From: Lysobacterales bacterium
GTDB taxonomy: Bacteria > Pseudomonadota > Gammaproteobacteria > Xanthomonadales > SZUA-36
Reading direction: 5' to 3'
Length of the DNA stretch: 64,000 nt
NCBI GenBank assembly: GCA_029859645.1
Contig: JAOUCS010000004.1
Coordinates: 1 to 64,000 of the forward strand
In this document: positions 3,080 through 58,835 of the stretch, one piece after another
Layout: every line of letters begins with the position of its first letter
Numbering within the stretch: position 1 is the first letter of the stretch
Made by a program: the position numbers and the translations under genes
The notes under the pieces: generated by a model
What the model saw: only the letters and a program-made list of their open reading frames with translations
Databases searched by the model: none
What the model was told of the DNA's origin: nothing

Positions 3080-3131
3080 ACTGGATAATCCGGGCGGCAA
3101 GCGGTGGGGCGATATTATATGCTTCCTTTCT

Positions 3132-3725: not shown

Positions 3726-3749
3726 TCAGTAAGAAAGGGAGGCGCGAGG

Positions 3750-4568: not shown

Positions 4569-4583
4569 AAACAGGCATAAAAG

Positions 4584-4614
4584 AAAGGCCGGCGTGTGGA
4601 AATTGCCGGCCTTT
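4584..4614. terminator. Bidirectional rho-independent terminator candidate
   Basis: A perfect 10-bp stem (AAAGGCCGGC at 4584-4593 with GCCGGCCTTT at 4605-4614) encloses an 11-nt loop. On the minus strand it is followed by CTTTTAT, a reasonable U-tract. On the plus strand it is followed by CGGCTTTGTC. It sits between the convergent DUF2189 and ferredoxin-NADP reductase genes and could end both transcripts. Confidence 0.65.
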
Positions 4615-4646
4615 CGGCTTTGTCAACTTTGTACCGTGGGATTCAG

Positions 4647-4709
4647 TGTGACCCACTGGGGCCGAAGCCCTTGACACAGGAAATTGGGGGGGACTGTGCG
4701 TGGGTCACA
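4647..4709 (-). other. Foldable 63-nt element in the 3' region of the reductase transcript
   Basis: A perfect 10-bp inverted repeat (TGTGACCCAC at 4647-4656, GTGGGTCACA at 4700-4709) encloses two further complementary pairs: GGGC/GCCC (4659-4662 with 4667-4670) and CACAG/CTGTG (4675-4679 with 4694-4698). Read on the minus strand this is a three-way junction whose small hairpin is closed by a canonical C(UUCG)G tetraloop. The element starts 58 nt after the reductase stop and lies ahead of the terminator, so it would be in that gene's 3' untranslated RNA. It may be a structured RNA, a 3'-derived small RNA, or a small palindromic repeat (REP/MITE-like). No matching flanking duplication is visible. 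The function is unknown. Confidence 0.5.
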
Positions 4710-4766
4710 ATCTAATCATAGGACAGATTCAGAAGTCTGCAACACGTTTTGGCTGTTTCCGTCCAT

Positions 4767-5792
4767 TCAATCTTCCACGCCCAACCGCTTGTGCATGATG
4801 GGGCTGGTGGTCGTGTATTGCAGGCGGACTTTTTGCTCCGGATGCACATGCTGCTGAACGGCAAATGCTGCCAGGGCCGCTTCGTGAAATCCACTGAGGA
4901 TTAATTTTTTCTTACCCGGGTAGGAATTGATGTCACCGACGGCGAAAACACCCGGAATGCTGGTTTGGAATTTCTCGGTATCCACACGAACCTGGCGCTT
5001 ATCCAGGTCCAGGCCCCATTCAGCGATTGGGCCAAGGTTGGGTGAAAGTCCCCAGAATACGAAGACTTCATCAGCCTCGATATGCTGCTGCTGCCCCTGC
5101 GGATCTGCGATTTCAAGTCCGCCAAACGCGCCATCCTGCTCGAAAACCCCACGCACATGGCCCTGGAACTCTCTTAGTGTTTTAGCATTGACCAGTGCTT
5201 TCATTTGCTTGACCGAAGCGGGTTGTGCCCGGTATTCGTCCCTGCGATGCACCAGGGTGATGCTGCGTACCTTGTTGTGCAACTCGAGTGTCCAGTCCAA
5301 GGCGGAATCCCCACCTCCCAGGATGATAATGTCCTTACCTGCCAGGCTTTCAGGGTTCCGAATCCGGTAATGGATGGTGCGGTTTTCCCACGCATCTGCA
5401 CCCTTGGCCCTCAGGCGCCGGGGCTGAAACGCTCCCAGCCCGGCGGCGAGTATCACCGCTGCCGTGTCGAACCGGGTGCCTGCGGATGTTTCCAGCAGGA
5501 ATCGCCCATCGTCGGTCTGTTCCAGGCTGTTGACGGTCTGGCCGAGATGAAATTCGGCATTGAATGGCTTGATCTGTTCCATCAGCCGGTCGGCCAGTTC
5601 CTGGGCACCGCATACGGGCAGCGCAGGTATGTCGTAAATGGGCTTGTCCGGGTAGAGTTCTGTGCACTGTCCACCCACCTGTCTGAGAGAATCAACAACA
5701 TGGGCGTGTATATCGAGTAACCCCAGTTCGAAAACCTGGAAAAGGCCGCAGGGGCCGGCGCCAATGATGACTACGTCGGTTTTTATCGTCAT
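4767..5792 (-). CDS. Type-2 ferredoxin--NADP+ reductase (thioredoxin-reductase-like)
   Basis: 341 residues. The ATG at 5792 puts the FAD-binding motif VIIGAGPCG at residues 7-15. A second Rossmann motif ([13 protein letters not shown]) for NADPH lies near residue 155, and a C-terminal FAD contact ([13 protein letters not shown]) near residue 285. The redox CxxC of thioredoxin reductase is absent at the NADPH domain, which together with the [17 protein letters not shown] segment indicates the YumC-like ferredoxin/flavodoxin-NADP+ reductase family. It moves electrons between NADPH and ferredoxin in the cytoplasm. It is divergent from ung. Confidence 0.88.
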
Positions 5793-5865
5793 ATCGTGTT
5801 TGCCTGATGCGATCTTTCTGCTACCTTGGGCTGATCTCCTCAGATTCAAGCCATGGGGTAAGAAA

Positions 5866-6558
5866 ATGGGCCAGGCAAGAGAGATCCGTCTCGAAGCCTC
5901 GTGGAAAGAGCGACTCGCAAGCGAGTTTTCACAAGACTACATGATTCATCTGCGCGCGTTTTTACTGCAGAGAAAACGTAGTGGGGCGGTAATTTATCCG
6001 CCCGGCGACCAGATTTTCAATGCGCTCAATTCCACACCCTTCGAAGCTGTCAAGGTCGTCATCCTTGGCCAGGATCCTTACCACGGCCCGGGCCAGGCAC
6101 ACGGCCTGTGTTTTTCGGTGCAAGACGGAATCGCTCTGCCACCGTCATTGATCAATATTTACAAGGAGCTTGAATCGGATCTTGGAATGCAACGGCCCGC
6201 CAGCGGTAATCTGCAGCGCTGGGCGGAGCAGGGCGTTTTACTGCTGAACGCGGTGTTGACGGTGGAAAGAGGCCAGGCCGGGTCGCACCAGGGTAAGGGT
6301 TGGGAGCGGTTTACTGACAACGTGGTCGGTGCCCTGAATGCTGGCCGCGAAGGGCTGGTCTTCATGTTGTGGGGTGGTTACGCCAAAAAAAAAGGTGTGG
6401 CGATCGACCGCAAAAAGCACCTGGTGCTGAGCGCGCCACATCCTTCGCCGCTATCGGCCCATCGTGGGTTCCTTGGCTGCAGACACTTCTCGAAAGCCAA
6501 CCACTGGCTTCAGCAGAAGGGTGAGGTCCCCATCGACTGGAGCGTACAGGCCGGCTAG
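5866..6558 (+). CDS. ung: Uracil-DNA glycosylase, family 1
   Basis: 230 residues, the normal size. It removes uracil from DNA at the start of base-excision repair. The water-activating motif [13 protein letters not shown] (Asp70) and the leucine-loop motif [10 protein letters not shown] are both intact. The ATG at 5866 gives the family's usual N-terminus; a longer frame running back into the reductase gene is rejected. A run of nine A at 6385-6393 encodes three Lys codons and is a frameshift-prone tract. The stop shares CTAG with the convergent GFA gene. Confidence 0.96.
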
Positions 6559-6959
6559 CCGGAAAACACTTCCAGTGCTTCGTCGATCGGCATCCAGTTC
6601 ACGTGTGCGTCGAAAAATGAATTCGCCTGGGGCCGTCGGTCGATCTCGCCATCTATACAGCCCAGGGCTACGTGGGTTTCACCAGGCCAGCGATCGGCCT
6701 CGAACAGCATCGTGCTACCGCAGTCCGAGCAAAAGCCGCGCCGGGCTCCATCAGAGGACTTATACCACTGGAGGTGATGGTCGCCTTGCAACAGGATAAA
6801 GTGATCGCTCTGGAAGCCCGCCCAGGTGACATATCCGGCGCCATGGGCTTTCCGGCACATGCCGCAATGGCAATGGGCGCACCACTTGCTGGGTAGCTGT
6901 ACTTCAAAAGTAACGGAGCCGCACAGGCAGCCGCCCCGGATGCACTTGTTTTCATTCAT
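6555..6959 (-). CDS. GFA/CENP-V family zinc protein
   Basis: 134 residues with the zinc-binding cysteine pattern of the family: GGCLCG near the N-terminus, CHCGMC around residues 30-35, and CSDCGS around 77-82. Members include glutathione-dependent formaldehyde-activating enzyme, but most have no proven substrate. The gene lies 10 nt downstream of the MAPEG gene on the same strand, which suggests a shared transcript; MAPEG proteins often handle glutathione. Its stop overlaps that of ung by 4 nt. A second, distinct GFA gene lies at 51162-51683. Confidence 0.88.
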
Positions 6960-6969
6960 GATCAGATCC

Positions 6970-7395
6970 TCAATTCATCAACAGGTACGATGCCAGCCTG
7001 ACCCACATGAACAGCAGGAACAGGCAGCTCATGAAGTAAGCAATGAACCGGTGAATCACCCGGTTGTAGGTGCACTGGACAATGCTGTGAATGACACGCA
7101 GGAGTACGAATCCCCAGGCCAGTTGAACCAGCAACGCATCCTGAATCAACAGCAGCATTGCAACCATGCAGGCCAGGTAGAAAAGAACCGGCATTTCAAA
7201 CAGGTTTTTGAGGTTGTTGGACGCTGCGGCTGAAGCGGTCAGCAATTGATGTGCCTCGGCACGGTCGCGCAAATCCTGGTGAGGAATTTTTTTGCGGCCG
7301 ATCTCGGGAATACGGACCGCAAACAGGTATATCCAGACGGCGAACGTCAACAGGACCATGCTGAGCAGAGGCAGTAAAATTGGGTTGAATGACAT
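6970..7395 (-). CDS. MAPEG family membrane protein
   Basis: 141 residues with four hydrophobic segments and an interior loop (NNLKNLFEMPVLFYL) typical of the MAPEG family (membrane-associated proteins in eicosanoid and glutathione metabolism). It is probably an inner-membrane protein. Bacterial members are mostly uncharacterised; some bind glutathione. It appears to be the first gene of a two-gene unit with the GFA gene and is divergent from icd. Confidence 0.85.
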   Translation of the reverse strand: MSFNPILLPLLSMVLLTFAVWIYLFAVRIPEIGRKKIPHQDLRDRAEAHQLLTASAAASNNLKNLFEMPVLFYLACMVAMLLLIQDALLVQLAWGFVLLRVIHSIVQCTYNRVIHRFIAYFMSCLFLLFMWVRLASYLLMN

Positions 7396-7497
7396 CAGAA
7401 GTCCTATAGACCGGGGCTAATCTTCATTTTACCAGATGGCCGGCAGCGTGATTGCTCCCCGTTGCTTTTTTGATCCGCTATTTGAGTTGGTTCGCGC

Positions 7498-7503
7498 TAT
7501 AAT
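7498..7503 (+). promoter_or_regulatory. Probable -10 element of icd
   Basis: A perfect TATAAT lies 42 nt before the icd start codon in the 150-bp divergent spacer. I find no convincing -35 hexamer at 16-18 bp spacing and no TGn extension, so an activator may be needed. The icd start is preceded by GAGG at about 7531. Confidence 0.45.
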
Positions 7504-7545
7504 CGGGGATTAATTTGTAACTGTCTTTAGTGAGGAAAAATAATC

Positions 7546-8790
7546 ATGAGCTACCGCCACGTCAAACTCCCTGAATCGGGGCAGAAAATATCCATCAGCG
7601 ACAACCGGCTGGTTGTTTCGGACAATCCTATCCTGGGTTTTATCGAAGGTGACGGTATTGGGTCTGACATCACTTCTGCAGCCATGCGGGTATGGGATGC
7701 CGCGGTTGCGAAAGCTTACGGCGGTCAGCGGAAAGTTCACTGGGCTGAGCTCTTTCTCGGTGAAAAAGCGGCGGGCATTTACGACGGCGATTATTTTCCT
7801 GCTGAAACGCTCGACGCGATCAAGGAATTAACCGTGGCTATCAAGGGTCCGCTGACGACCCCGGTGGGTGGTGGTTTTCGCTCCCTGAACGTTTCCTTGC
7901 GCCAGGAACTGGATCTTTACGCCTGTGTCAGGCCGGTAACCTATTTTTCCGGCGTCCCTTCACCGATGAAGCGGCCCGAAGACGTCGACGTGGTCATTTT
8001 CCGCGAAAATACGGAAGACGTTTACTGCGGTATCGAATACCAGTCAGGCACCCCGGAGAATGAGAAAGTCGCAAAATTCCTGAGAGAGGAAATGGGTGCG
8101 GAATTTTTCGAAGATGCCGGGATTGGTATCAAGCCGATTTCGCCTTTCGGTTCCAAGCGGCTGGTGCGCAAAGCGATCCAGTTTGCAATCGACAATGATC
8201 GCGACAGCGTCACACTGGTGCACAAAGGCAACATCATGAAGTTCACCGAGGGTGCGTTCCGCAACTGGGGTTATGAGTTGGCACGGGATGAATTCCCGGA
8301 CCAGACCATCAGCGAAGACGAGCTCTGGGAAAAATACGACGGCGAAGCGCCGGCAGGCAAGATTATCATCAAGGATCGCATCGCCGACATCATGTTCCAG
8401 TTGATGCAGTTACGCCCGGCAGAGTTTGACGTTCTGGCAACCATGAATCTGAACGGAGATTACCTGTCCGATGCCCTGGCCGCGGAAGTCGGCGGGATGG
8501 GCATCGCACCGGGCGCAAACATGGCCGATCATGTGGCTGTGTTCGAGGCCACGCACGGAACCGCTCCAAAGTATGCAAACCTGGACAAGGTCAACCCCAG
8601 CTCATTGATGTTTTCGGGTTGCATGATGTTTGATTACATTGGCTGGAGAGAGGTGTCCGCGATGATCAACCAGGCGTTCGCGAGCACCGTGGCTGCCGGG
8701 ATCGTGACCTACGATTTCGCGCGTCAGATGGACGGTGCGACCGAAGTATCGACATCCGGATTTGCCGACGCCCTGATCGAAAGGCTTTGA
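7546..8790 (+). CDS. icd: Isocitrate dehydrogenase, NADP+-dependent
   Basis: 414 residues, very close to the E. coli enzyme in length and sequence. It oxidises isocitrate to 2-oxoglutarate and CO2 with NADP+. Substrate-binding residues in [13 protein letters not shown] are present, with Ser113 at the position phosphorylated by AceK in enteric bacteria. The [10 protein letters not shown] segment carries the Lys-Tyr pair that marks NADP+ preference. No aceK is in the window, so regulation by phosphorylation is untested. The DUF455 gene begins 28 nt downstream. Confidence 0.97.
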
Positions 8791-9642: not shown

Positions 9643-10368
9643 TCACGACTCGAGCCTGACTGATTCGATCCCGTCTGGTGAGGCCATAAGGTAGCTGCCG
9701 AAGTCATACCAGTCGGCCAGCACGATACGTTCAGCCGGGCCGCTTTCCAGGATTACAGCGTGTCTCGCCGGCCGGTGCGTATGGCCATGTATCATCCTGG
9801 GAACTCCGTGCCTGCGAAACGCATCGTCCACCGCAGCGGCATTCACGTCCATGATCTCCATGCTTGATGACTGCGTATGTTGCAAGCTGGCCTGACGCGC
9901 AGACTTTGCCATCTCCAGTCGCTCCTCGATCGACAGGGCCAGCACCCCCGCCTGCCACTGAGGATCCCGGACCTGCCTGCGCAGGGCCTGGTATTCGACA
10001 TCATCGGTACACAGGCTGTCCCCATGAAGCAACAGCGTGGGCGTGCCAAACAAATTGATGACCTGTTCTTCCGGCAACAGCTTCAGTCCGGCCCGTTCCG
10101 CGTAATCCCGGCCGACCAGGAAATCCCGGTTGCCATGCATGAAATAGCATTTCACACCTGCGGAGGCGAGAGCCTGCAGCGCCGTGGCGACCTGTTGTGC
10201 CGTGGTGGAAAGGGCGTCGTCACCAATCCAGAACTCAAACAGATCACCGAGAATATAGAGTTCCCCGGCCCGGGTGGCCGGTCCAGAAAGGAATGCGCCA
10301 AACCATTCTGAACGGGCCGGGACAGCATCCTCGAGATGGAGATCGGAAATAAAGAGAGTGGGCTTCAT
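9643..10368 (-). CDS. lpxH: UDP-2,3-diacylglucosamine diphosphatase
   Basis: 241 residues, as in E. coli. It hydrolyses UDP-2,3-diacylglucosamine to lipid X and UMP, the fourth step of lipid A synthesis, at the inner-membrane face. The metallophosphoesterase motifs are in order: ISDLHLED, GDLFEFWIGDD, HGNRDFLVG, LLHGDSLCTDD and HGHTHRPA. The start codon overlaps the ppiA stop by one base, a common gammaproteobacterial pairing. Together with the outer-membrane barrel at 53634 it shows an LPS-bearing envelope. Confidence 0.96.
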   Translation of the reverse strand: MKPTLFISDLHLEDAVPARSEWFGAFLSGPATRAGELYILGDLFEFWIGDDALSTTAQQVATALQALASAGVKCYFMHGNRDFLVGRDYAERAGLKLLPEEQVINLFGTPTLLLHGDSLCTDDVEYQALRRQVRDPQWQAGVLALSIEERLEMAKSARQASLQHTQSSSMEIMDVNAAAVDDAFRRHGVPRMIHGHTHRPARHAVILESGPAERIVLADWYDFGSYLMASPDGIESVRLES

Positions 10369-10964
10369 CAGCCGTCACTGATCTCCACGGATTCGATTAC
10401 GACCGGTTCTTTGGGGACGTCACTGAATCCCTGGACTCTGCCGGTTGGAACGAAACGGATGCTGTCTACCACGCTCATACCCGAGGTAACGCGCCCGAAT
10501 ACGGTATAGCCCCATTCACGCGAACTCCCTTCACCCGTGTAGTCCAGGTCGGTGTTGTCATTCACATTGATGAAAAATTGTGAGGTGGCCGAATGCGGGT
10601 TGTTGGTTCTCGCCATGGCGATGGTGCCGCGCTTGTTTTTCAATCCGTTTGCTGCTTCATTCTGAATCGGTTCACCGGTGGTTTTCTTCTGCATGTCCGG
10701 TGTGAAGCCGCCGCCCTGGATCATGAAATTGCCGATGACCCGGTGAAAAATCGTTCCATCGTAATAACCGCTTTTTGCATAATTGACAAAGTTTTCGACA
10801 GAAACAGGTGCTTTATCGGCGTAGAGTTCCAGTTGGATTTCCCCCATGCTGGTGCGTATGACGGCTGATGGATTGCCCTCCGCGAGGAGTGTCGGCGGCG
10901 TCAGCAGGGTGAGCAGTATGGCGAGACCGGCGAGCCGGTTCAGGACAGCTTGGTGCTTGTTCAT
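10368..10964 (-). CDS. ppiA: Periplasmic cyclophilin-type peptidyl-prolyl isomerase
   Basis: 198 residues. A signal peptide covers about residues 1-28 (ending LLAEG), so it is periplasmic. The cyclophilin core is clear: [24 protein letters not shown] and SQFFINV, with the catalytic Arg in FHRV. It catalyses cis-trans isomerisation of proline bonds in exported proteins. It is cotranscribed with lpxH and divergent from gyrA across 245 bp. Confidence 0.94.
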
Positions 10965-11091
10965 TATGAGATTCCCAGTTCAGTAGTAAGGCATAAAAAT
11001 GGAATGATACTGGTGCTTGGCAGACCGGGCCAGTAATTTCCGAAAACCATTGGTTTTTTGTCGTCTAAAAAGCGGATAAACCACGGATTTA

Positions 11092-11100
11092 TGGTATAAT
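11092..11100 (+). promoter_or_regulatory. Extended -10 promoter of gyrA
   Basis: TGGTATAAT at 11092-11100 is a consensus extended -10 (TGn plus TATAAT). No good -35 hexamer is seen at 17 bp. Transcription from here would give a leader of about 100 nt, A/T-rich just before the gene. A ribosome site (CGGAGA) lies near 11191, upstream of the ATG at 11210. An imperfect AAAACC/GGTTTT dyad at about 11043-11058 lies upstream. Confidence 0.6.
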
Positions 11101-11209
11101 TCTCTGATTAATGCGCAGGCTTTCTGGCTCGTGCTTCTCGCCTTAGTATGAAAATTTAAAATAAAAATAAATCAATTAGTTATGAGTAATTTCGGAGAAA
11201 TATTCTAAT

Positions 11210-13768
11210 ATGGCTGAACTTGCCAAAGAAGTGCTTCAGGTAAACCTCGAAGACGAAATGCGGCAGTCCTACCTGGACTATGCCATGAGCGTGATCGTAG
11301 GAAGGGCTCTGCCCGATGTAAGGGACGGCCTGAAGCCGGTTCATCGGCGTGTTCTTTTCGCCATGAGCGAGCTCGGTAACGACTGGAACAAGGCTTACAA
11401 GAAGTCTGCCCGAGTGGTGGGTGACGTGATTGGTAAGTATCACCCCCACGGCGATACCGCGGTGTACGACACGATAGTCCGGATGGCCCAGCCGTTCGCC
11501 ATGCGTTACATGCTGGTCGATGGCCAGGGCAATTTTGGCTCGGTAGACGGTGATGCTCCTGCAGCCATGCGTTATACCGAAGTGCGCATGTCACGGCTGG
11601 CGCACGAACTGCTGTCCGACCTGGAAAAGGAAACCGTCGATTACGTTCCCAACTACGACGAAAGTGAATATGAACCGCGCGTATTGCCAACCCGCACGCC
11701 AAACCTCCTGGTCAATGGTTCGGCCGGCATCGCTGTTGGAATGGCGACCAATATCCCCCCGCACAATCTGAACGAAGTCATCAATGCAACGATTGCACTG
11801 ATTGACAACCCGGAGCTGTCCGTGGAGGAACTCATGGACCACCTCCCCGGGCCGGATTTTCCAACGGCGGGGATTATCAACGGTGCGCAGGGGATTCACG
11901 AGGCCTATCACACCGGGCGTGGGCGCATCTATGTTCGGGCGCGGTCGAATATCGAAACCACTGAATCTTCAGGCAAGCAGGCGATCATCGTCACGGAACT
12001 GCCTTACCAGGTCAACAAGGCCCGCTTGCTTGAGAAAATAGCGGAGCTGGTCAAGGAGAAAAAGCTCGAGGGCATTACTGAACTGCGCGACGAGTCCGAC
12101 AAGGACGGCATGCGGGTGGTGATCGAATTACGCCGGGGCGATGTCCCGGAAGTGATTCTGAATAACCTTTACAAGCAAACCGCGATGCAAAGTGTTTTTG
12201 GTATCAACATGGTTGCGCTGGTAGAAGGGCAACCCCGGTTGTTGAACCTGCAAGAAATCCTCAGCGCCTTCATCAGTCACCGCCGCGAAGTGGTCACCCG
12301 CAGGACGCTGTTCGAGCTGCGCAAAGCGCGTGCTCGCGCCCACGTGCTGGAAGGTTTAACGGTTGCGCTGGCGAACCTGGATGAAGTGATCGAAATGATC
12401 AAGGCCTCGCCGACGCCGGCAGAGGCCAAAAGCCGATTGCTGGCACGGTTGTGGGAGCCTGGACTGGTCCGTGCCATGCTCGGCCAGGGGGGTGCCGAGA
12501 CTTCGCGACCCGAAAACCTCGAGCTCGAATTCGGTTTGCAGGAGGAAGGCTACCAGTTGTCGCCGGTACAGGCGCAGGAAATTCTCAATATGCGACTGCA
12601 CCGCCTGACCGGACTGGAGCAGGAAAAGCTGACCAAAGAATATGAAGACATCCTCGAGCAGGTCAAGGCGCTCCTGCTGATCCTGTCTGAACCCGCCCGT
12701 TTGCTGGCAGTGATCCGGGAGGAGCTGGCAGCCGTGCTGGAGCAGTTCGGCGATGAGCGCCGGACCGAAATCCTGCAGGACCGGCTGGACCTCAGCCTGG
12801 AAGACCTGATCACCGAAGAAGACGTCGTGGTCACTTTGTCGCATGGCGGCTATGCAAAATCACAGCCATTGGACCGCTACCAGGCACAGCGCCGGGGCGG
12901 AACCGGTAAATCGGCGACCAAGATGAAGGATGAGGACTTCATTGAGCGTCTGTTCGTCGCCAATACTCACGATATGCTGCTGTGTTTTACCAGCAGGGGT
13001 AAAATTCACTGGCTCAAGGTCTACCAGCTGCCGCAGGCCAGTCATGCCAGCCGGGGCAAACCCATAGTCAACCTGCTACCGCTGGAAAAAGGTGAGCGCG
13101 TTAATGCGGTATTGCCGGTTCGGGACTATCCGGATGATCTGTTTGTGTTTTTTGCAACCCGTAACGGCATTGTCAAGAAAACGCCATTGTCGGACTACTC
13201 GCGTCCGCGCGCCAATGGAATCTGGGCTATTGACCTCCCTGACGATGACGAACTGGTCAACGTAAGCCTGACGGACGGCGCACAAGACATCATGCTGTTT
13301 TCCAGTTCAGGTAAATGCATCAGGTTCGCAGAAAAAGACGTGCGTTCCATGGGCCGTGTTGCCAGGGGTGTTATCGGAATCCGCGTGCCCGGGGGACAGC
13401 AGGTTGTTTCGATGCTGGTTCTGGGTGCCGGCGATATCCTGACGGTGACTGAGAACGGGTTCGGTAAGCGAACGGCTCCGGACGACTATCCCAGGCAGGG
13501 CAGGGGTGGGCAGGGTGTCATTGGTATCCAGACTTCCGACCGCAATGGTGCGTTGATTTCCGCCATTCAGGTCAAGGCCGACGACGACATCATGTTGATC
13601 TCTGATGGAGGTACGCTGGTCCGCACCAGTGCCGCCGAAATCTCGACGCTGGGCAGGAATACCCAGGGCGTGACACTGATTCGCCTGCGCAAAGATGAAA
13701 AGCTGGTCGGGCTGGCGCGCATCGCGGCCGATACCGCCTCTGAAGATGGGCAGGAGGCTGGCGACTAG
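11210..13768 (+). CDS. gyrA: DNA gyrase subunit A
   Basis: 852 residues. With GyrB it introduces negative supercoils. The active-site Tyr is Tyr122 (RYTEVRM). The quinolone-resistance region has the same numbering as E. coli, with Thr83 in place of Ser83 and a conserved Asp87; Thr at 83 is also the natural residue in Pseudomonas and is not by itself a resistance mutation. The GyrA-box is QRRGGTG, starting the C-terminal beta-pinwheel. The acidic tail is short compared with E. coli. The stop shares CTAG with the convergent gene. Confidence 0.98.
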
Positions 13769-14331
13769 TCCAGCAGGCTGGTGACCACGAAGGCGCCGCG
13801 AATATCGCCTTCGCGGTAACCTACAGCCTTGTCATGCGGGTAGAGTTCAGCGAGCTTATCCGCGACCTCCGCTGGAATTGCGGTGCCGTGGCATTGCAGG
13901 CACAGGCCGTCTGTCGGAATGGCTTTCATAAAGCGAAACTCCGGCCCCCCTGAAGTTTCTGCCGTTTCAGTCCAGCTCAAGGTGTTCGCTTTTTCCCCTG
14001 CACTCCGTCGTTCCTCAAAAGTTTCAAGCACCGCAATCTGCCAATCCCGTGCTGCATTGTCCGGGTTTCTGTTGAATGTGCTTACCCGTGACAATTGCAT
14101 CCCTGATTGCTGGGAAATCTGCCGGGCAATCACTTCAGCGCGACTGTGGCATACTTCGATCGCGTTAACGGGCCCACCCGCCTGCATGGTGCTCACCAGT
14201 TCAGATTTCAGAGACTGGGCGAAAAGTGCTATGGCCTGTTTCGCGCGGGTGACTTCCTGACCGGTTTCACCAGCCCAAAGTGCGGCGGGTAACGTGGTGC
14301 TCAGAATCAGCACGCAGATCAGCTTTTTCAT
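13765..14331 (-). CDS. Tll0287-like (DUF3365) periplasmic c-type haem protein
   Basis: 188 residues with a signal peptide (residues 1-20, ending LWAGE). One c-type haem motif, LCLQCHGT, lies near residue 143. The preceding helical part (MKAIP, with [15 protein letters not shown] upstream) matches the Tll0287-like domain, formerly DUF3365, found in haem sensors and stand-alone periplasmic proteins. No kinase or transmembrane output domain is attached, so it probably works as a small soluble redox or ligand-binding protein. It overlaps osmC-like by 4 nt, which implies translational coupling. Confidence 0.82.
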
Positions 14332-14765
14332 GCGTCGATAATGATGTGAGTGTCGAGTATGGTTTCGCCGTTGAGGGAATTGGTCACCAGGCAGACGTGA
14401 TCAGATTTCTCAATTAAACGTTCGGCCTTGTTCGTGTCGGAACCGGGCGGAACATGCAGGGTGACCTTGACATGGTACCTGGTAAACCGGGTTACATTGT
14501 CGACCCGGTCAAGTATCCCGGCAACTTCGCAGTTCACCGAGTTCCATTCGAACCGGGAACCGCGGGCAATGGCTCTGAACGTCAGGATGAAACAATCAGC
14601 GACTGATGCCACCAGGAATGTTTCGGGTGACCAAAGGTCGCCTGGGCCGCCGAACTCGGCTGGAGCCAGTGAAGGCAGCGTTTGCAAACCAGGACTGCTG
14701 ACGGTGATTTCGCCCGTGGCCGGAGCCTCGGCGCTCACCTCGTAACGGTGCGGATAATCTTGCAT
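14328..14765 (-). CDS. OsmC family peroxide-detoxifying protein
   Basis: 145 residues of the OsmC/Ohr fold. The two redox cysteines are visible: one in SVADCFILTF (about residue 59) and one in DHVCLVTNS (about 125). Family members reduce organic or fatty-acid hydroperoxides. The exact subfamily (OsmC, Ohr or YhfA) is unclear. It starts 11 nt after the peroxiredoxin gene and overlaps the next gene by 4 nt, so it sits in the middle of a redox operon. Confidence 0.88.
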   Translation of the reverse strand: MQDYPHRYEVSAEAPATGEITVSSPGLQTLPSLAPAEFGGPGDLWSPETFLVASVADCFILTFRAIARGSRFEWNSVNCEVAGILDRVDNVTRFTRYHVKVTLHVPPGSDTNKAERLIEKSDHVCLVTNSLNGETILDTHIIIDA

Positions 14766-14776
14766 CTCTTCAAATC

Positions 14777-15253
14777 TTACAGGTTGGAAAGGACGTATTC
14801 GGCGCTGCTGACCTTGAATTCGCCCGGTGCTTCCACGAATAACCGGGTTACGACGCCATCGTCAGCGACTAAAGCGAAGCGCTGAGATCGCATTCCCATT
14901 CCGAAAGCGGAAGCGTCCATTTCAAGGCCCAGCAGTTTGGCAAAATCAGCATTGCCGTCGGCCAGCATCAGAATGTGATCTGCGTTGGCGCTCTTGCCCC
15001 AGGCATTCATCACGAAAACGTCGTTGACAGCGACGCAGGCAATGGTGTCGACACCTTTCGCGTGAAGCTGTCCGGCCTGTTCGACAAAGCCCGGTAAATG
15101 CCTGGCGGAGCAGGTTGGGGTAAACGCTCCGGGTACTGAAAAAAGTACGACTTTTTTGCCACCAAACAGTTCTTCTGTGCTGAGGGAGGCGGGACCGTTT
15201 TCACGCATGGTTGTCAGCGTGGCCTCGGGGATACGGTTTCCAACTTCAATCAT
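14777..15253 (-). CDS. Peroxiredoxin, Prx5/AhpE-type (type II peroxiredoxin)
   Basis: 158 residues. The peroxidatic motif PGAFTPTCSARHLPGF holds the active Cys near residue 49. A second Cys in DTIACVAVN (about 72) could be the resolving residue of an atypical two-Cys enzyme. No glutaredoxin domain is fused. It reduces peroxides using thioredoxin or glutaredoxin/glutathione. It lies 4 nt after a receiver-domain gene. Confidence 0.93.
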   Translation of the reverse strand: MIEVGNRIPEATLTTMRENGPASLSTEELFGGKKVVLFSVPGAFTPTCSARHLPGFVEQAGQLHAKGVDTIACVAVNDVFVMNAWGKSANADHILMLADGNADFAKLLGLEMDASAFGMGMRSQRFALVADDGVVTRLFVEAPGEFKVSSAEYVLSNL

Positions 15254-52987: not shown

Positions 52988-53614
52988 TCAGCTTTCGAGG
53001 CGCGATTTCAAGACTTCGATTTCCTGCCTGAGTTCTGCGACCTCGGCCTCCAGCGTCTCGATCCTGTCCGCCAGGGGGCCGCCTGCGGCGCCTGAAGCCT
53101 GCCGGGGTGCCGGTTCAGGGATATCAGGCTCACCGCATAACAGGTGGGCAAAACGCACTTCTTTTTGCCCGGGCTGGCGCGGTAAGGTGGTCACCAGCGG
53201 AGGTTCATGCTCGGCAAGACGATCCAGCATGTATTGAACATCATCAAGGTCGTCGAATTCATATAGCCGATGTGAGTTGGTTCTCAGTTCACTCAGCGTC
53301 TGGGGTCCGCGCAACATCAATGGACAAAGCAAAGCCAGGCCCTTGCTGTGGACACCGATAACCTTGCCTGCCTGGTGTTCGTACTTTGCAACCCGAGCGC
53401 CCCAGGCTTCCCGCACCATCCCCATCGATTCGAGTTCTCTCAAGGTGTGTCCGATGTCGCCTTCATGATATGCCGTCACCGGATTCCGGGCTGTTTTTTG
53501 ATTGCAGGCGTTTTTCAATGCATTGAGCGTTAGCGGATATTGCTCCGGCGTCGTTTCCTTCTTTTCGATCAGGCAGCCCAGCACGCGGGCCTGGATCGGG
53601 GTCAACTCGTTCAT
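52988..53614 (-). CDS. yceH: YceH family (DUF480) protein
   Basis: 208 residues from the ATG at 53614, which has AAGGAG about 10 nt upstream. DUF480 proteins contain two winged-helix domains: here TPIQARVLGCLIEKKETTP opens the first, given as TPIQARVLGCLIEK, and MLRGPQTLSELRTNS, given as LRGPQTLSEL, marks the second. The C-terminus is a predicted coiled coil (about 180-205). The function is unknown; DNA binding is likely from the fold. It is 19 nt downstream of the outer-membrane barrel gene and could be read with it. Confidence 0.9.
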   Translation of the reverse strand: MNELTPIQARVLGCLIEKKETTPEQYPLTLNALKNACNQKTARNPVTAYHEGDIGHTLRELESMGMVREAWGARVAKYEHQAGKVIGVHSKGLALLCPLMLRGPQTLSELRTNSHRLYEFDDLDDVQYMLDRLAEHEPPLVTTLPRQPGQKEVRFAHLLCGEPDIPEPAPRQASGAAGGPLADRIETLEAEVAELRQEIEVLKSRLES

Positions 53615-53633: not shown

Positions 53634-54914
53634 TCAGAAGTACCACGCCAATTGCGCGAATACACTTGGACCGGTAGCAAAGTACAAGCCATCCACGGGC
53701 GATTCAATGCCGCCGTATTCGCTGCCGTCGGGACCGACGGGCAGGTTGAGCGCACCCAGCACCAGCAGGTTCTGTTTCCAATCGTACTGTACAACCAACT
53801 GCGCCAGTGCTGAAGGATCTTCGAGGTTGATGAAAAAATTCGGGACCAGGATCAGCAGAGGATTCATTTCAATTGATGCGGAAAGTGCAACATAGTTCCG
53901 CGACAGCGTGAACAGTTCACCGCGTTCCAGTCGTCTCAGCAAATCCGGGTTCTGCAGCAGTTCGGAAGGCGCATACTCGCCATTCTTCTGCCCGAAACCG
54001 CTGTAATAGTATTCCAGAACGCCACTCACGTTTTTGCCTCCCCATACCCAGGAATAGCTCAGACTGGTCACCAGAGAGATGACTCTGTCGCGGTCGGTAT
54101 GGGTCCAGGTCAGGTCCCCCCGCCAGACAGCGCCGCCGAGGTTGGTGATGCCGCCGACACCGAGGATCTGGTCGTCAAAGTGCTGGGCCGCCAGCAGGTC
54201 GATTTCGTTCTGCCCCAGGAAGCCATGGTATTTAAAGGCGAGCGATGACTGGTCCGATTCCACATTACCGGTCAACGGGTCGCGCCGGACAATGGCGACG
54301 CCCTGCAGGTCATTGCCGCTGTCAAACAGGTACTGCCCATACAGCATGTCATCACCGGTCTTGTATTCCTTGTCCACTGCCGCGGGGTCAAAGGGGTTGA
54401 ACACATCCATCGGGGTGAAAATCATCCCGTTTCCCCAGCTGATGGCCTGGCGGCCGAAGCGCCAGGCCGTGTGTTCGGTCGTGTACCCGACGTTCAGCCG
54501 GTCCAGGCGGTGGATGAAAGCCGCCTTTTTGTCATTGCCAAATGAGTAGGTGAGGTCCCACCAGCGCCGGTCATCGCTGATGACGCGGTTGATAGGCAGC
54601 GCGGAGCCCGGCAGTTCATCGGCCAGTTGGAGGGCGTCGGAATAAATCCCGATAAACTGGTAGTCCGCCTTGAAATCCCAGTTGTCCCGGCGGCCGCTCA
54701 GTTTAAGGCGGGTTTCCAGGCTGTTGTCCAGCGAACCGGAACCCACCAGGTCCCGGAAAATGCTGTTATCGGGATAATGCATGAAAGTGGCCTGGTACTT
54801 GAGGTGCCCGCCAAATGTCCATTCGGTCTCGCTGGCAACGATGGCAGGACTGAACAACAGCAACAGCAAACTGGCGCAGATCAACCCGCCGAGTTTGCGC
54901 CGGATGCGGCACAT
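53634..54914 (-). CDS. Outer-membrane beta-barrel protein (DUF1302-like)
   Basis: 426 residues from the ATG at 54914, one base after the ATPase stop; a longer start at 54944 would overlap it. A signal peptide ends near residue 27 (AIVASE). The rest alternates polar and hydrophobic residues with many aromatics and ends AQLAWYF, the C-terminal Phe of outer-membrane barrels. The FGRQAISWGNGMIF segment resembles DUF1302/alginate-export-like porins. It is the last gene of the LolA-ABC operon and may be its outer-membrane partner. Confidence 0.78.
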   Translation of the reverse strand: MCRIRRKLGGLICASLLLLLFSPAIVASETEWTFGGHLKYQATFMHYPDNSIFRDLVGSGSLDNSLETRLKLSGRRDNWDFKADYQFIGIYSDALQLADELPGSALPINRVISDDRRWWDLTYSFGNDKKAAFIHRLDRLNVGYTTEHTAWRFGRQAISWGNGMIFTPMDVFNPFDPAAVDKEYKTGDDMLYGQYLFDSGNDLQGVAIVRRDPLTGNVESDQSSLAFKYHGFLGQNEIDLLAAQHFDDQILGVGGITNLGGAVWRGDLTWTHTDRDRVISLVTSLSYSWVWGGKNVSGVLEYYYSGFGQKNGEYAPSELLQNPDLLRRLERGELFTLSRNYVALSASIEMNPLLILVPNFFINLEDPSALAQLVVQYDWKQNLLVLGALNLPVGPDGSEYGGIESPVDGLYFATGPSVFAQLAWYF

Positions 54915-54915
54915 T

Positions 54916-55608
54916 TCAGGATGGCTCCTGTTCCCGGTCTTCAATGATCTTTCCGTCCTGCATCTTGATCAACCGTTTGGCGTACCGCATGACCCGTTCG
55001 TCGTGGGTTGCAATCAGGAAGGTCACGCCGTGGGTTGAATTCAATGCGCAGAACAGCTCCATCAGGTGGGTGGCGGACACGGAGTCGAGGTTGGCGGTGG
55101 GCTCATCAGCCAGCACCAGTTTGGGCTGGCTGACAATGGCGCGGGCGACGGCGACCCGTTGCTGCTGGCCGCCGGACAACTCGGCGGGCCGACGATGTTC
55201 CATGCCCTCCAGGCCTACTTCGCGAAGAATGTCCAATGCCTTTTTCTTGCGCTCCTTTGCCGGGACGCCCTGGACCTGCATGACGAATTCGACATTTTCC
55301 TGCGCGGTCAGCACCGGGATCAGGTTGTAAGCCTGGAATACGAATCCGATGTGATGCAGGCGCAGGTCGGCCAGCGGGCCCTTTCCAAGCAAGTCGACCC
55401 TTTCGCCATCAATGCTGATTTGTCCACTGTCCAGTTCGTCCAGGCCGCCGATCATGTTCAGCAGGGTTGTCTTGCCGGATCCTGATGGGCCGGAAAGGCA
55501 CAGGAAGGAACCTTGCTCGATGTCGATCGTGACGTGATCAAGGGCCTTGATCACGGCATCGCCTTGCTGGTAGTCCTTGCAGAGTTCAACGCACTTGATT
55601 TCAGCCAT
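54916..55608 (-). CDS. ABC transporter ATPase, LolD/MacB type
   Basis: 230 residues from the ATG at 55608. Walker A GPSGSGKTT, signature LSGGQQQRVAVARA, Walker B LVLADEPTANLD and H-loop IATHDERV are all intact. The YQQGDAVIKALDHV start and its size match the LolD/MacB/FtsE group that drives mechanotransmission-type permeases. It sits between two upstream permeases and the barrel gene with gaps of 10 and 1 nt. Confidence 0.95.
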   Translation of the reverse strand: MAEIKCVELCKDYQQGDAVIKALDHVTIDIEQGSFLCLSGPSGSGKTTLLNMIGGLDELDSGQISIDGERVDLLGKGPLADLRLHHIGFVFQAYNLIPVLTAQENVEFVMQVQGVPAKERKKKALDILREVGLEGMEHRRPAELSGGQQQRVAVARAIVSQPKLVLADEPTANLDSVSATHLMELFCALNSTHGVTFLIATHDERVMRYAKRLIKMQDGKIIEDREQEPS

Positions 55609-55618
55609 GAGAATTCCT

Positions 55619-56860
55619 TCAGATCTTTGCGATGGCCTCGACAGGCCGGTATTGGGAAGCACGCCAGGCCGGCAGCAGGCTGGTCAGGATGCCCAGCACG
55701 ATGACCACCGTGTTGGCCATCAACAGATCCTTGAGTTTCAATGCCGGGTAAAGCACGCTGGATGCCCCCATCATTTCCATGCCTTCGGCCACTGCGGACA
55801 CGTCGATACCGTCCTGGACGGGCAGGATGCTGGCGACCGCCAGCACATTGCCTGCCAACAGCCCCAGGGTTAGCAGCATCAGCGATTCGAGCAGGATCTG
55901 GTAGAGAATGGCCGAAGGTTTCATACCCAGCGCCTGCATCAGGCCGATCTCGCGGATCCGTTCGAACACCGCCATCATGAGCGTGTTAGCCAGGCCAAAA
56001 CTCAATGCCAGGAAAATCACGATGATCCAGACCAGTACGAAGCCGTCCATCATCTTCAGCATCATCCCCAGGTAGGTCTCAAGTTCCATCCAGGGCAAAG
56101 TTTCGAAACCTTCGCCATAAACACCGGAAACAAGGCGGTACACCGCGTCTATGTCACGGTAGTCATGGCCGGTGACGGCTATTTCGGAGACTTCCCCCGG
56201 CACCTCCAACAGCGCCTGGATGGTGGTCAGCCCACCATAGATGAAGGCTTCCTCCAGGCTGCTCAGCTTGGCCTTGTAGACACCCACGATCCGGAATCCG
56301 CGATCTGCAATGTTGTTCTCCGGGTCCTGGCTCATGACCACCACGCGCTTGCCCAGCCGGGTTTCCAGGCGTTCGAGCAGCTTTGCGCCCACTACCAGGC
56401 CATTGTCGTCCACCGATTCGAGGAAGCGGCCCTCGATGATGCTGTGCGGATCGAAGCCCAGTGCAATTTCACCCTGCGGGTCAACGCCCAGCAGAGTGAC
56501 GCCGCGGTTGTTGCGCTCGCTGGATATCATCGCCGGAACGCGCAATCGTGAGGTCCAGCCGGACACTTCGGGACTCTGCAGGCCCCGGGCTTTCCCGGCA
56601 TCCGGTTGCGGTATCCGGTGATCGATACTCGGGTCGTCGCGAAACGCCGGATGATGCACCTGGACCTGGCCGGGCAGTGCATCGATACCGTCCTCGATCA
56701 TCTGGTCGACCATGCCGCGCATCAGGGCGGTCATGAAAATCATTGCCCACACGCCGACTGCAATAGCCAGTAGCATGATCGCAGTACGCCGGTGGTTCCG
56801 CCACAGGTTCCGCCAGGCCAGCCGTGACATTGCGCCGAAGGGCAGATGGCTGGACGACAT
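55619..56860 (-). CDS. ABC permease, FtsX/LolC-like (second of pair)
   Basis: 413 residues from the ATG at 56860; a GTG just before it overlaps the upstream stop. There is one N-terminal span (about 27-48), a large periplasmic domain (about 50-275) and three C-terminal spans (about 280-395), which is the type VII/MacB topology. The WRNLWRNHRRTAIMLLAIAV start is typical, given as WRNLWRNHRRT. It is related to, but clearly distinct from, the preceding permease, so the pair may form a LolC-LolE-like heterodimer. Confidence 0.9.
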   Translation of the reverse strand: MSSSHLPFGAMSRLAWRNLWRNHRRTAIMLLAIAVGVWAMIFMTALMRGMVDQMIEDGIDALPGQVQVHHPAFRDDPSIDHRIPQPDAGKARGLQSPEVSGWTSRLRVPAMISSERNNRGVTLLGVDPQGEIALGFDPHSIIEGRFLESVDDNGLVVGAKLLERLETRLGKRVVVMSQDPENNIADRGFRIVGVYKAKLSSLEEAFIYGGLTTIQALLEVPGEVSEIAVTGHDYRDIDAVYRLVSGVYGEGFETLPWMELETYLGMMLKMMDGFVLVWIIVIFLALSFGLANTLMMAVFERIREIGLMQALGMKPSAILYQILLESLMLLTLGLLAGNVLAVASILPVQDGIDVSAVAEGMEMMGASSVLYPALKLKDLLMANTVVIVLGILTSLLPAWRASQYRPVEAIAKI

Positions 56861-56862
56861 CA

Positions 56863-58092
56863 CTACACGGCCCTCATGGCTTCGACCGGCCTTAACCTGA
56901 ACAGGCGAAGGGCAGGGTAGATGGAGGCCAGCAGGCAGAACAGGAAAACGACTGCCGGCCCCAATAACAGCGAAATGACTGATACGCTGGGATAAATACT
57001 TGCCGGTAAATTGAATCGTACGGCCATCTCATCCATCCCCGGATAAGAAAAACCGGCAGCATTGAAATAGAGAGCGACCAGGGCACCGAGAAGAACACCG
57101 ATGGCGAGCCCGATCGCAGCCATCAGTGCAGTTTCGAGCATCACCAATGAGGCCAGTCTGGAGGGTTTGATTCCCAGCGCGGTGATCACGCCAAATTCCC
57201 GGGTTCGTTCCAGTACCGACATCAATTGCGTATTCAATACACTGAATGCCACCAGGATGATCAGCACCCCGTACATGAACCAGGCGCTGGAAAAATCCGC
57301 CTTGATCGCCTGTTGCAATCCGGGATGCAGCGCGGTCCAGTCGAGCAATACGAGAGCATCCTGTCCCGCAATGATGTTGTTCACACGCCCGGAGGCCGCC
57401 GGTATCTGTTCAAGGTTGTCCGTACTGATGGCGATACTGTTGCCATGGCCTTCCATCGCAAACGTATCCTGGAAGTAACCCAGTGGTATTTCAGCCAAAC
57501 TGCGGTCCATGTCGACTGAACTGCTGTTGAAGATGCCGACGACGGTGACCACGCCAGCCGCAAATGAACCGTCCCGGCCGCTGCCCAGCAAGGTCAGTTC
57601 GTCGCCCGTTGTGACTTTCAGGTTTCTGGCCAGCACACCACCGATAACGATTTCTGCCGCATCGGGGTCCTGCAGGAAGCGTCCTTCCTGAACCAGGCCG
57701 GGCAGGGTAGAGACCCGGGGCTCATGATCGGGTTGCACGCCAATGACCTGGATACCGACAGAACGGAGTTCGCTGGAGGCCAGCGCAAATGCCGCGGCCC
57801 GGGCCGTCACACCGGCACCGGGCAGGGCCTGTCTTACCTGTTCAGCCAGCGCCAGCACCGAGGGAATGCTGGTTCTGAGCTTGGGGTTATGGTTGTAGCC
57901 GTCGTGTTGCACCTGCAGATGACCGCTGAAGGCCTGCAGCGTGTTGTTGATCATCATGTCGTAGGACCCCAACTGCAGGGAGATCATGAAGATCAGCAGT
58001 ACGTTTGAGAAGATCATCGCGGTGGCCGTCAACCAGGTCCGTCGCTTGTGACGCCAAAGGTTGCGCCACGCCATGCGAAGATCGAGTGTCAT
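56863..58092 (-). CDS. ABC permease, FtsX/LolC-like (first of pair)
   Basis: 409 residues with the same topology as its neighbour: one span near residues 20-42, a periplasmic domain of some 220 residues, then three spans. The N-terminus LRMAWRNLWRHKRRTWL resembles that of the partner. It overlaps the LolA-like gene by 4 nt (ATGA) and precedes the second permease by 2 nt. Confidence 0.9.
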   Translation of the reverse strand: MTLDLRMAWRNLWRHKRRTWLTATAMIFSNVLLIFMISLQLGSYDMMINNTLQAFSGHLQVQHDGYNHNPKLRTSIPSVLALAEQVRQALPGAGVTARAAAFALASSELRSVGIQVIGVQPDHEPRVSTLPGLVQEGRFLQDPDAAEIVIGGVLARNLKVTTGDELTLLGSGRDGSFAAGVVTVVGIFNSSSVDMDRSLAEIPLGYFQDTFAMEGHGNSIAISTDNLEQIPAASGRVNNIIAGQDALVLLDWTALHPGLQQAIKADFSSAWFMYGVLIILVAFSVLNTQLMSVLERTREFGVITALGIKPSRLASLVMLETALMAAIGLAIGVLLGALVALYFNAAGFSYPGMDEMAVRFNLPASIYPSVSVISLLLGPAVVFLFCLLASIYPALRLFRLRPVEAMRAV

Positions 58093-58835
58093 TGGCGCGG
58101 ATTCCGCAGGTTGGACAGGGTGAACACGTTATTGGCCAGTTCGACATCGAATTCAATCGAGTTGGCGGTCATTTGAGTCCACTCTTCGGGCGTGTCGGTT
58201 TTGGACATCCGCATCACTTTGGCCACGCTGCGTCCCCCCATTTCTTCCACTTCAAGGGTCTTGAGCGTCTTCACCAGGATACCGTCCTGGTCCCAGAACT
58301 GTTGTTCCATCAGCACGTAGTCGTCGCGAACAACCAGCACCTCCCTGCCCCAGACCACTGCGGCATCCTCATGGGGAATCGAGGTAATGGTGTAATGCAA
58401 GCGGCCGTCCTTTTCCTCGGTGGCCGTCAATTCGTGATCATACTGGTCAATGATGTCAGTGGATTTGCTAATGTCCTTGTTCGAGAAGTCACTGCCCATC
58501 CAGCTTTGCGACATCATTGACGACGGCACCTTGATGATGCGGTTTATCTTGGGCGTGTAGGTCCACATGTTGTTGTCGTCCAGCAAGGTCCCGTTGCCGG
58601 CGTCTTTCCTGGGTTCGATCACTCGCACCAGTGACTGCTTGTCGCCCTTGCTCCAGGATTCCATGGTCATGGTCCTTTCCCAGTCCGGGCGGTGAATGAT
58701 CATGGTCATGTTGGAATGCGAGGTGAGCCCGCGCCAGTGATCCATGGCATTTCGCACCAGTTGGGTCGCATCTGATTCCTGGGCTGCGGATGAGGATAGA
58801 AAGAGCAGTCCAAGCCACAGCATTGATTTATGCAT
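58089..58835 (-). CDS. LolA-like outer-membrane lipoprotein-sorting protein
   Basis: 248 residues. A signal peptide ends near residue 18 (SSAAQES), so it is periplasmic or, since no lipobox Cys is visible, soluble. The WRGLTSHSNMTMIIHRPDW segment, given as GLTSHSNMTM, the MWTYTPKINRIIKVP block and DFSNKDI match proteins labelled outer membrane lipoprotein-sorting protein (LolA-like fold). It would carry a hydrophobic cargo from the permeases. A GAGGTG ribosome site precedes the ATG. It heads the operon and is divergent from the nucleotidase gene. Confidence 0.87.
   Translation of the reverse strand: MHKSMLWLGLLFLSSSAAQESDATQLVRNAMDHWRGLTSHSNMTMIIHRPDWERTMTMESWSKGDKQSLVRVIEPRKDAGNGTLLDDNNMWTYTPKINRIIKVPSSMMSQSWMGSDFSNKDISKSTDIIDQYDHELTATEEKDGRLHYTITSIPHEDAAVVWGREVLVVRDDYVLMEQQFWDQDGILVKTLKTLEVEEMGGRSVAKVMRMSKTDTPEEWTQMTANSIEFDVELANNVFTLSNLRNPRQ

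Follow-up and report, generated by a model that had tools for sequence, protein, structure and literature searches.

It is still an open question how the outer membrane is reached and crossed by lipids other than lipoproteins and lipopolysaccharide. Type VII ATP-binding cassette (ABC) transporters typically work at the periplasmic (outer) face of the cytoplasmic membrane and do not pass their substrate across it; LolCDE extracts lipoproteins, and YbbAP-TesA has been proposed to be an extractor of hydrophobic molecules (PMC12646458). The cavity of LolA holds acyl chains, and a hairpin of LolC, the Hook, is the part that recruits LolA (PMC9457489). The subject of this study is a five-gene operon encoding a LolA-like carrier, two permeases, an ATPase, and an outer membrane barrel, located at positions 53634-58835 on the minus strand of a 64,000-nucleotide stretch of a Lysobacterales genome (GenBank assembly GCA_029859645.1, contig JAOUCS010000004.1, positions 1 to 64,000), hereafter called the window.

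Gene sets with related parts have been reported from several bacteria. In Castellaniella defragrans, deletion of AmeABCD reduces monoterpene tolerance (PMC6394551). Pseudomonas putida PP_0765 (DUF1302) and PP_0766 (DUF1329) are reported to be required on Tween 20 and are predicted to bind each other (PMC10866462). A study of Thalassolituus on the n-C28 alkane found the MMPL-LolA protein TOL_3187 to be up 42-fold and detected TOL_3188, a predicted porin encoded downstream of it, on n-C28 only (PMC6304351). The iron stimulon of Porphyromonas gingivalis includes PG1175-81, which comprises ABC proteins, an MMPL protein, and a LolA_like protein (PMC10434189), and a 2026 proposal for Borrelia BBJ23-29 unites a LolA-like protein, a type VII ABC transporter, an Omp85 barrel, and tetratricopeptide-repeat (TPR) proteins (PMC13078400).

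The operon described here is real and widespread and, within the open-licence literature, uncharacterised. No description of the five-gene set, or of the carrier-barrel module that it shares with other sets, was found in the open-licence PubMed Central papers. An earlier reading of the window's letters, the original prediction, had proposed the operon as the best candidate in the window for an undescribed system; that stands for the present set, which was not found in print among these papers, but the same logic has been published with a resistance-nodulation-division (RND) engine (PMC6394551, PMC10866462) and, for Borrelia, with a type VII ABC transporter and an Omp85 barrel (PMC13078400).

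The five genes and their products

The carrier gene (58089-58835; 248 amino acids [aa]) overlaps the permease A gene (56863-58092; 409 aa) by 4 nucleotides (nt) at ATGA. The permease B gene (55619-56860, ATG at 56860; 413 aa) follows after 2 nt, the ATPase gene (54916-55608, ATG at 55608; 230 aa) after 10 nt, and the barrel gene (53634-54914, ATG at 54914; 426 aa) after 1 nt. For three of the five genes the list of open reading frames (ORFs) offers longer alternative starts; those given here were read from the sequence. The original prediction had set out the same minus-strand genes with the same junctions, all of which were reproduced, and its list of parts, a LolA-like carrier, two four-span permeases, an ATPase, and a barrel with a terminal Phe, was borne out by Pfam, hydropathy, motifs, and structural models.

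The carrier is assigned by Pfam to PF17131 (LolA_like; E 3.9e-47), the sole family matched at E 0.001 or better, and its gene is the single PF17131 match in the source genome. Its N terminus has, by eye, a signal-like stretch without a lipobox, and one segment of the protein, PSSMM..SWMGSDFSN, is conserved. The AlphaFold2 model (predicted local distance difference test [pLDDT], 91.1) has a LolA-superfamily fold, and its closest structures in the Protein Data Bank (PDB) are P. gingivalis LolA3 (9tp6_B; Z 26.7, root mean square deviation [rmsd] 2.3, 224 residues aligned) and 4z48_A, titled a DUF1329 family protein (Z 26.6, rmsd 2.6, 225 aligned). PF17131-type structures rank at Z 23-27 and are followed by LolB/LolA proteins at Z 14.3 or less, LolA itself reaching at most Z 13.0. 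The modelled fold thus places the carrier in the LolA superfamily.

Permease A carries an FtsX domain (PF02687, E 1e-17), and permease B carries a MacB_PCD core (PF12704, E 7.1e-19) together with FtsX (PF02687, E 1.5e-14). The two are 28% identical, and hydropathy gives each one N-terminal and three C-terminal spans with about 225 residues in between. Their solved relatives include LolF, LolE, LolC, and MacB; in phmmer comparisons with solved chains, permease A matched LolF (3.7e-17) and LolE (1.5e-12), and permease B matched LolF (5.5e-16). The ATPase, which is LolD/DevA-like, matches ABC_tran (PF00005, E 2.9e-34) and has the Walker A, Q-loop, LSGGQ, Walker B, and H-loop motifs. The operon therefore has the features of a type VII ABC transporter (MacB/LolCDE/FtsX superfamily): FtsX domains, four spans, a large periplasmic domain between spans 1 and 2, and a MacB-type ATPase. 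None of the five genes matched an RND engine in Pfam.

The barrel protein has a signal-like N terminus and a C-terminal Phe. It matched nothing in Pfam (up to E 10) or NCBIfam, and so does not qualify as a Pfam DUF1302 member, and its best sequence match in the PDB was at chance level (E 1.1); two of its relatives match DUF1302 below the cut-off (E 0.034 and 0.0047). The AlphaFold2 model (pLDDT 93.3, predicted TM-score 0.88) has 18 long strands, and its best-ranked fold matches are the OprD/Occ channel OccAB4 (Z 23.8, rmsd 3.1, 310 aligned), the alginate exporter AlgE (Z 22.8, rmsd 3.5, 308 aligned), and MOMP (Z 22.2, rmsd 4.3, 316 aligned). Omp85 is not among the fold matches listed, from which other families may be missing.

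Conservation in the barrel is concentrated in one region. Residues 148-195, which comprise the region between model strands 5 and 6 and the flanking strands, account for 24 of the 88 invariant columns in an alignment of 13 barrels and for 5 of the 8 in an alignment of 45. The motif there (54354-54446, minus strand) reads GRQ..SWG....P.D..NPF.P..D.EYK.G.D, where GRQ are the preceding residues, and is common to ABC-linked and DUF1302-type barrels. Provided that the N terminus lies in the periplasm, this region of the model would correspond to outer loop 3. In porins that loop is the constricting one, and this, with the conservation, leads us to suggest that the region may serve as a gate or docking site.

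Recurrence of the gene set

Searches with the barrel led to 13 named loci, with the five genes whole in 10 and the other three cut by contig ends; the nearest relatives are metagenome-assembled genomes of Lysobacterales/Xanthomonadales. A profile of the 13 barrels matched 37 of 369 genomes of the class (Gammaproteobacteria), and one of 45 barrels matched 64, 32 of them at E<1e-40. Within the window's family 22 of 39 genomes were matched, four of these with E values of only 4.8e-4 to 8.4e-4, where the matching frames exceed 600 aa. In a sample of the phylum the barrel search matched 94 of 398 genomes (55 at E<1e-40), many of them from one family of another class.

At 73 of 91 loci around barrel matches, barrel, carrier, and engine are contiguous; 11 are cut by the end of the contig or region and seven are incomplete, the barrel and carrier profiles behind this count including most of L011-L023 and L069-L102. 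The loci include 20 regions with weak matches from the class search, four of which (G239, G056, G193, and G244) were chosen for an adjoining PF17131 match and the rest blind, and 20 regions with strong matches from the 55 genomes of the phylum sample. Among the incomplete loci, the barrel is 5.2 kb off at L077; L111 has carrier and barrel with an RND gene on the opposite strand; L152 has a 1.1-kb gap and no carrier in the stretch examined; L154 has an ATPase and a barrel; L103 has an RND gene and no carrier match; and L105 and L106 have no partner match. Across 43 operons of the window's gene order, the pairwise distances of barrel, carrier, and ATPase gave Mantel r values of 0.94, 0.90, and 0.89, which none of 1,000 permutations reached; part of this correlation arises because the genomes share common descent. 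Judged from these comparisons of sequence, with the set recurring and the distances correlating, the association of the genes exceeds chance.

Because the 91 loci had been picked by their barrel, we searched the same 369 genomes with the carrier profile. Thirty-seven carriers scored at least 295 bits, one scored 198, and the next scored 115. A contiguous barrel accompanies 31 of the 37, one (G311) has its barrel 5.2 kb downstream, and five (G336, G123, G033, G126, and G052) are cut by contig ends. This test is less independent than it appears, because 30 of the 37, whose collection had started from their barrels, sit in the carrier profile (A4); only seven do not, namely G153, which is contiguous, G311, and the five that are cut. 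At the G311 locus (L167, 3556-8759), about 5 kb of other genes separate the ATPase from the barrel. The barrel is thus not absent from orthologous operons, where the original prediction might have failed: beside the named loci, none of the 32 uncut close carrier homologues is without one.

The next 40 carriers, taken in strict rank order without selection, have an RND gene nearby in 32 cases and a same-strand barrel matched by profile in 25; seven have an unproved barrel-like ORF alone, and eight have neither, two of which are cut by contig ends. Of the 25 barrel matches, three (L188, L195, and L197) belong to the RND-barrel profile itself, and the scores of several others are just 17-35 bits. 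Since these carriers are mostly RND-linked, what they test is chiefly the carrier-barrel module and less the ABC operon. The possibility that the barrel is a chance neighbour was rejected on the strength of its kept place in all 10 uncut named loci and across several arrangements, together with the carrier-side tests.

Gene arrangements and engines

With carrier, permease, ATPase, barrel, and RND gene written as A, P, D, B, and R, the 91 loci include 49 of A-P-P-D-B (L016 among them), 11 of D-P-A-B, seven of A-D-fused PP-B, two of P-P-A-B-D, one of A-P-D-B, and three of R-A-B. Vibrio campbellii LJC015 is a named example with the window's gene order, and 2 of 72,556 annotated plasmid records matched. 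Five genomes (G057, G194, G368, G346, and G075) have two differently arranged copies, which suggests cargo-specific systems. The single-permease variant is found in L083 and the fused-permease variant in L082, L084, L085, L087, L088, L149, and L150; the fused protein has about 840-950 aa in the five measured, and that of L085 has two FtsX domains and two MacB cores.

Carriers of the same family also occur beside RND genes. Within 1.5-kb flanks, the ten top-ranking PF17131 matches from 274 genomes of the class (L025-L034) have an RND gene in eight cases and a barrel in nine; no barrel was seen within the 1.5-kb flank of L026. Five of these loci supplied the profile of RND-linked barrels, which leaves L027, L029, L031, and L034 as the only cases independent of it. 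By profile, the ABC-linked barrels are distant relatives of the RND-linked barrels (hhalign probability 94.5%) and of DUF1302-type barrels; for the latter, an alignment of four long sequences matched at 96.4% (E 1.2e-9), with 77 columns around R.GRQ...WG aligned. A direct comparison of the DUF1302-type and RND-linked profiles gave no match (1.7%), so that the relation between these two runs through the ABC-linked barrels only.

In Haliovirga abyssi (Fusobacteriota), a barrel that matches the ABC-barrel profile with 132 bits is found 1.1 kb past an MMPL-LolA_like pair, from which a ferredoxin gene separates it, and this locus suggests that one barrel family can adjoin either engine. The H. abyssi plasmid pHIC (L169) has two divergent MMPL-LolA_like sets (2371-7852 and 10218-14813), one with the ABC-type barrel past the ferredoxin gene and the other adjoining an ABC-domain gene. 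In the source genome, a DUF1302 fragment is cut by a contig end (C62:61496-61858, at the end of L108); the 12 kb before it held no carrier, RND, or ABC profile match.

Comparison with Lol, MacAB, and the reported relatives

The operon shares with Lol (LolCDE-LolA-LolB) a type VII ABC transporter and a periplasmic carrier of LolA fold. It differs in that its carrier family is distinct, its permeases and ATPase fall below the Lol cut-offs, its end point is a barrel and not LolB, and a full Lol set coexists with it. The source genome has a PF03548 LolA on contig C7, one LolC/E-type permease (491 bits) beside a LolD on the same contig, and its sole LolB match on contig C166; there is no LolB in the operon. 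The operon's carrier does not belong to PF03548. Against the lolCE equivalog, with a cut-off of 362.45 bits, the permeases score 115.6 and 122.1 bits, and the ATPase scores 215.7 bits against the LolD model, whose cut-off of 307.75 bits is strict, since the housekeeping LolD itself reaches just 307.2. Aligned with E. coli LolC and LolE and with the genome's LolC/E-type protein, six permeases of the system have a gap of 5-6 residues, compatible with a shorter hairpin, at the residues that we take to form the LolA-docking Hook. That the operon is the housekeeping Lol system was rejected because separate LolA, LolB, and LolC/E-LolD genes exist elsewhere in the genome, and the separateness from Lol that the original prediction had proposed is accordingly upheld.

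With MacAB-TolC the operon shares the MacB-type periplasmic core of permease B, and it differs in having no adaptor or TolC that was found and in its separate ATPase. MacAB was rejected as an identity for the operon: neither adaptor nor duct was found in it among the Pfam and NCBIfam matches listed, and the ATPase is an ORF of its own. YbbAP-TesA, as described, differs in its 10-span permease and hydrolase partner and includes neither carrier nor barrel (PMC12646458).

The nearest likenesses in the barrel and carrier are to sets with other engines. AmeABCD and P. putida PP_0765, PP_0766, PP_2018, and PP_2019, as reported, resemble the operon in a profile-related barrel, a LolA-superfamily carrier, an inner membrane engine, and the hydrophobic substrates implicated. 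They differ in an HAE3 RND/proton or efflux engine in place of the type VII ABC transporter, a fourth part (AmeC/PP_2018), a longer barrel (605 aa in AmeA, compared with 426 aa here), and a DUF1329 carrier in place of PF17131. The RND-PF17131-barrel sets (such as Thalassolituus TOL_3187/3188, L028, L032, and L113) likewise combine a LolA_like carrier with a barrel related by profile (94.5%), and differ in having an RND engine without an ATPase or FtsX permease. In Borrelia BBJ23-29, a LolA-like protein, a type VII ABC permease and ATPase, and a barrel are clustered and a non-polar cargo has been proposed, but the barrel is Omp85, the permease is single (homodimeric), two TPR proteins are present, and the host is a spirochaete (PMC13078400).

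Proposed function and alternatives

We consider it probable, though far from settled, that the operon encodes an exporter dedicated to moving a hydrophobic (lipid-like) molecule across the envelope. It would be the ABC-driven equivalent of the machines that combine an RND engine with a LolA-superfamily carrier and a DUF1302-clan barrel. A dedicated inner-to-outer membrane route for hydrophobic cargo was also the original prediction, and it stands as the best reading, separate from Lol; the cargo, the direction, and the hand-over are what we infer. The periplasmic-face work of type VII transporters, the extraction by LolCDE and YbbAP-TesA, and the acyl-chain cavity of LolA lead us to propose a path of extraction, shuttling, and hand-over. 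The type VII transporter would extract a hydrophobic molecule from the inner membrane, and the PF17131 carrier, with its modelled fold, would receive it in a LolA-type cavity and shuttle it across the periplasm. The carrier may then pass the cargo to the 18-strand barrel for insertion into the outer membrane or release through it.

Several observations weigh against this reading. A scan of 34 of the 153 ORFs listed in the operon flanks found no cargo gene common to them. Families seen twice occur only in same-genus pairs (phosphoglucose isomerase in L075/L078 and UPF0149 in L096/L097), and the lipid hints are single ones: a fatty-acid hydroxylase in L083, a START domain in L093, LpxC in L091, and an acyl-CoA dehydrogenase in L087. 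Barrels of the OprD/AlgE type can carry polar molecules too, and strand alternation in the carrier sequence is merely moderate. The carrier of 198 bits (G350; L161, 3349-7647) is a real exception, a carrier-permease-permease-ATPase set in which no barrel was detected, its outer membrane part being either lost or unrecognised, and six uncut carriers among the next 40 likewise have no detected barrel. The DUF1302-type match spans just the 77 columns, and its four sequences comprise two above the DUF1302 cut-off, one below it, and one unscanned.

The same parts could form a second lipoprotein-sorting line, in which a special set of lipoproteins would be extracted by the ABC transporter, carried by the LolA-like protein, and placed on the cell surface through the barrel, as proposed for Borrelia BBJ23-29 (PMC13078400). 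The permeases are closest to LolF and LolE among solved chains and LolA comes next in the carrier's fold ranking after the PF17131 structures, which fits such a line; yet the permeases and ATPase lie far below the Lol cut-offs, the presumed Hook region is 5-6 residues shorter in the six aligned system permeases, no recurring lipoprotein gene was seen beside the operon, and the published RND-driven relatives are tied to hydrocarbons and a detergent, so that we regard this explanation as unlikely. Somewhat more doubtful still is efflux of a toxic or signalling hydrophobic small molecule in the manner of MacAB-TolC, with the carrier taking the adaptor's role and the barrel forming the exit pore. 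Ame, which is reported to reduce monoterpene toxicity (PMC6394551), the MacB core of permease B, and the likeness of the barrel's fold to the exporter AlgE and to substrate channels would suit it, but the Pfam and NCBIfam matches listed hold no adaptor or TolC family for any of the five genes, the ATPase is unfused to a permease, and the LolA fold is that of a soluble carrier.

Transport in the opposite sense, with hydrophobic nutrients or lipids imported by an uptake or retrograde pathway, seems to us quite improbable. The requirement for the DUF1302/DUF1329 pair on Tween 20 (PMC10866462) and the induction of the MMPL-LolA/porin pair on a long-chain alkane (PMC6304351) could both reflect import; type VII transporters, however, are described as typically acting on the outer face of the cytoplasmic membrane without substrate passage (PMC12646458), and no catabolic gene family recurs in the 34 scanned flanking ORFs.

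Beyond the single operon, the sequences of the ABC- and RND-linked sets give the impression of one carrier-barrel module driven by either a type VII ABC transporter or an RND pump. Whether these sets make up a widespread unnamed exporter class, defined by a PF17131-type LolA-fold carrier and an 18-strand DUF1302-related barrel with interchangeable engines (a type VII ABC transporter in at least four arrangements, or RND), is in our judgement evenly poised. If they do, the class would export lipids to the outer membrane alongside Lol, Lpt, and Mla, with a barrel as its end point, and some genomes would have several copies, each specific to its cargo. Because extractor, carrier, and outer membrane barrel are united in one conserved operon, the question of lipid export becomes directly testable, and joining the ABC- and RND-linked sets through one module would offer a working hypothesis for DUF1302/DUF1329 pairs and for many genes annotated as "outer membrane lipoprotein-sorting protein".

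Neighbouring genes and locus variants

In L083, a gene of the fatty-acid hydroxylase family (5993-7018) lies directly upstream of the single-permease version of the operon and is a possible hint of cargo. Frames are split in two for the ATPase of L079 (3334-4336) and for a permease of L164 (3181-4454), by true decay or sequencing error, and barrel fragments accompany a whole barrel within 19 kb of L152 (2353-2595, 6105-6563, and 13806-14978), possibly as a result of duplication and decay. The YceH/DUF480 gene was rejected as a sixth part of the system, since it is absent after the barrel in L014, a locus that reaches equally far; in the window it lies on the same strand (52988-53614), 19 nt past the barrel, and it keeps this place in L011, L012, and L016.

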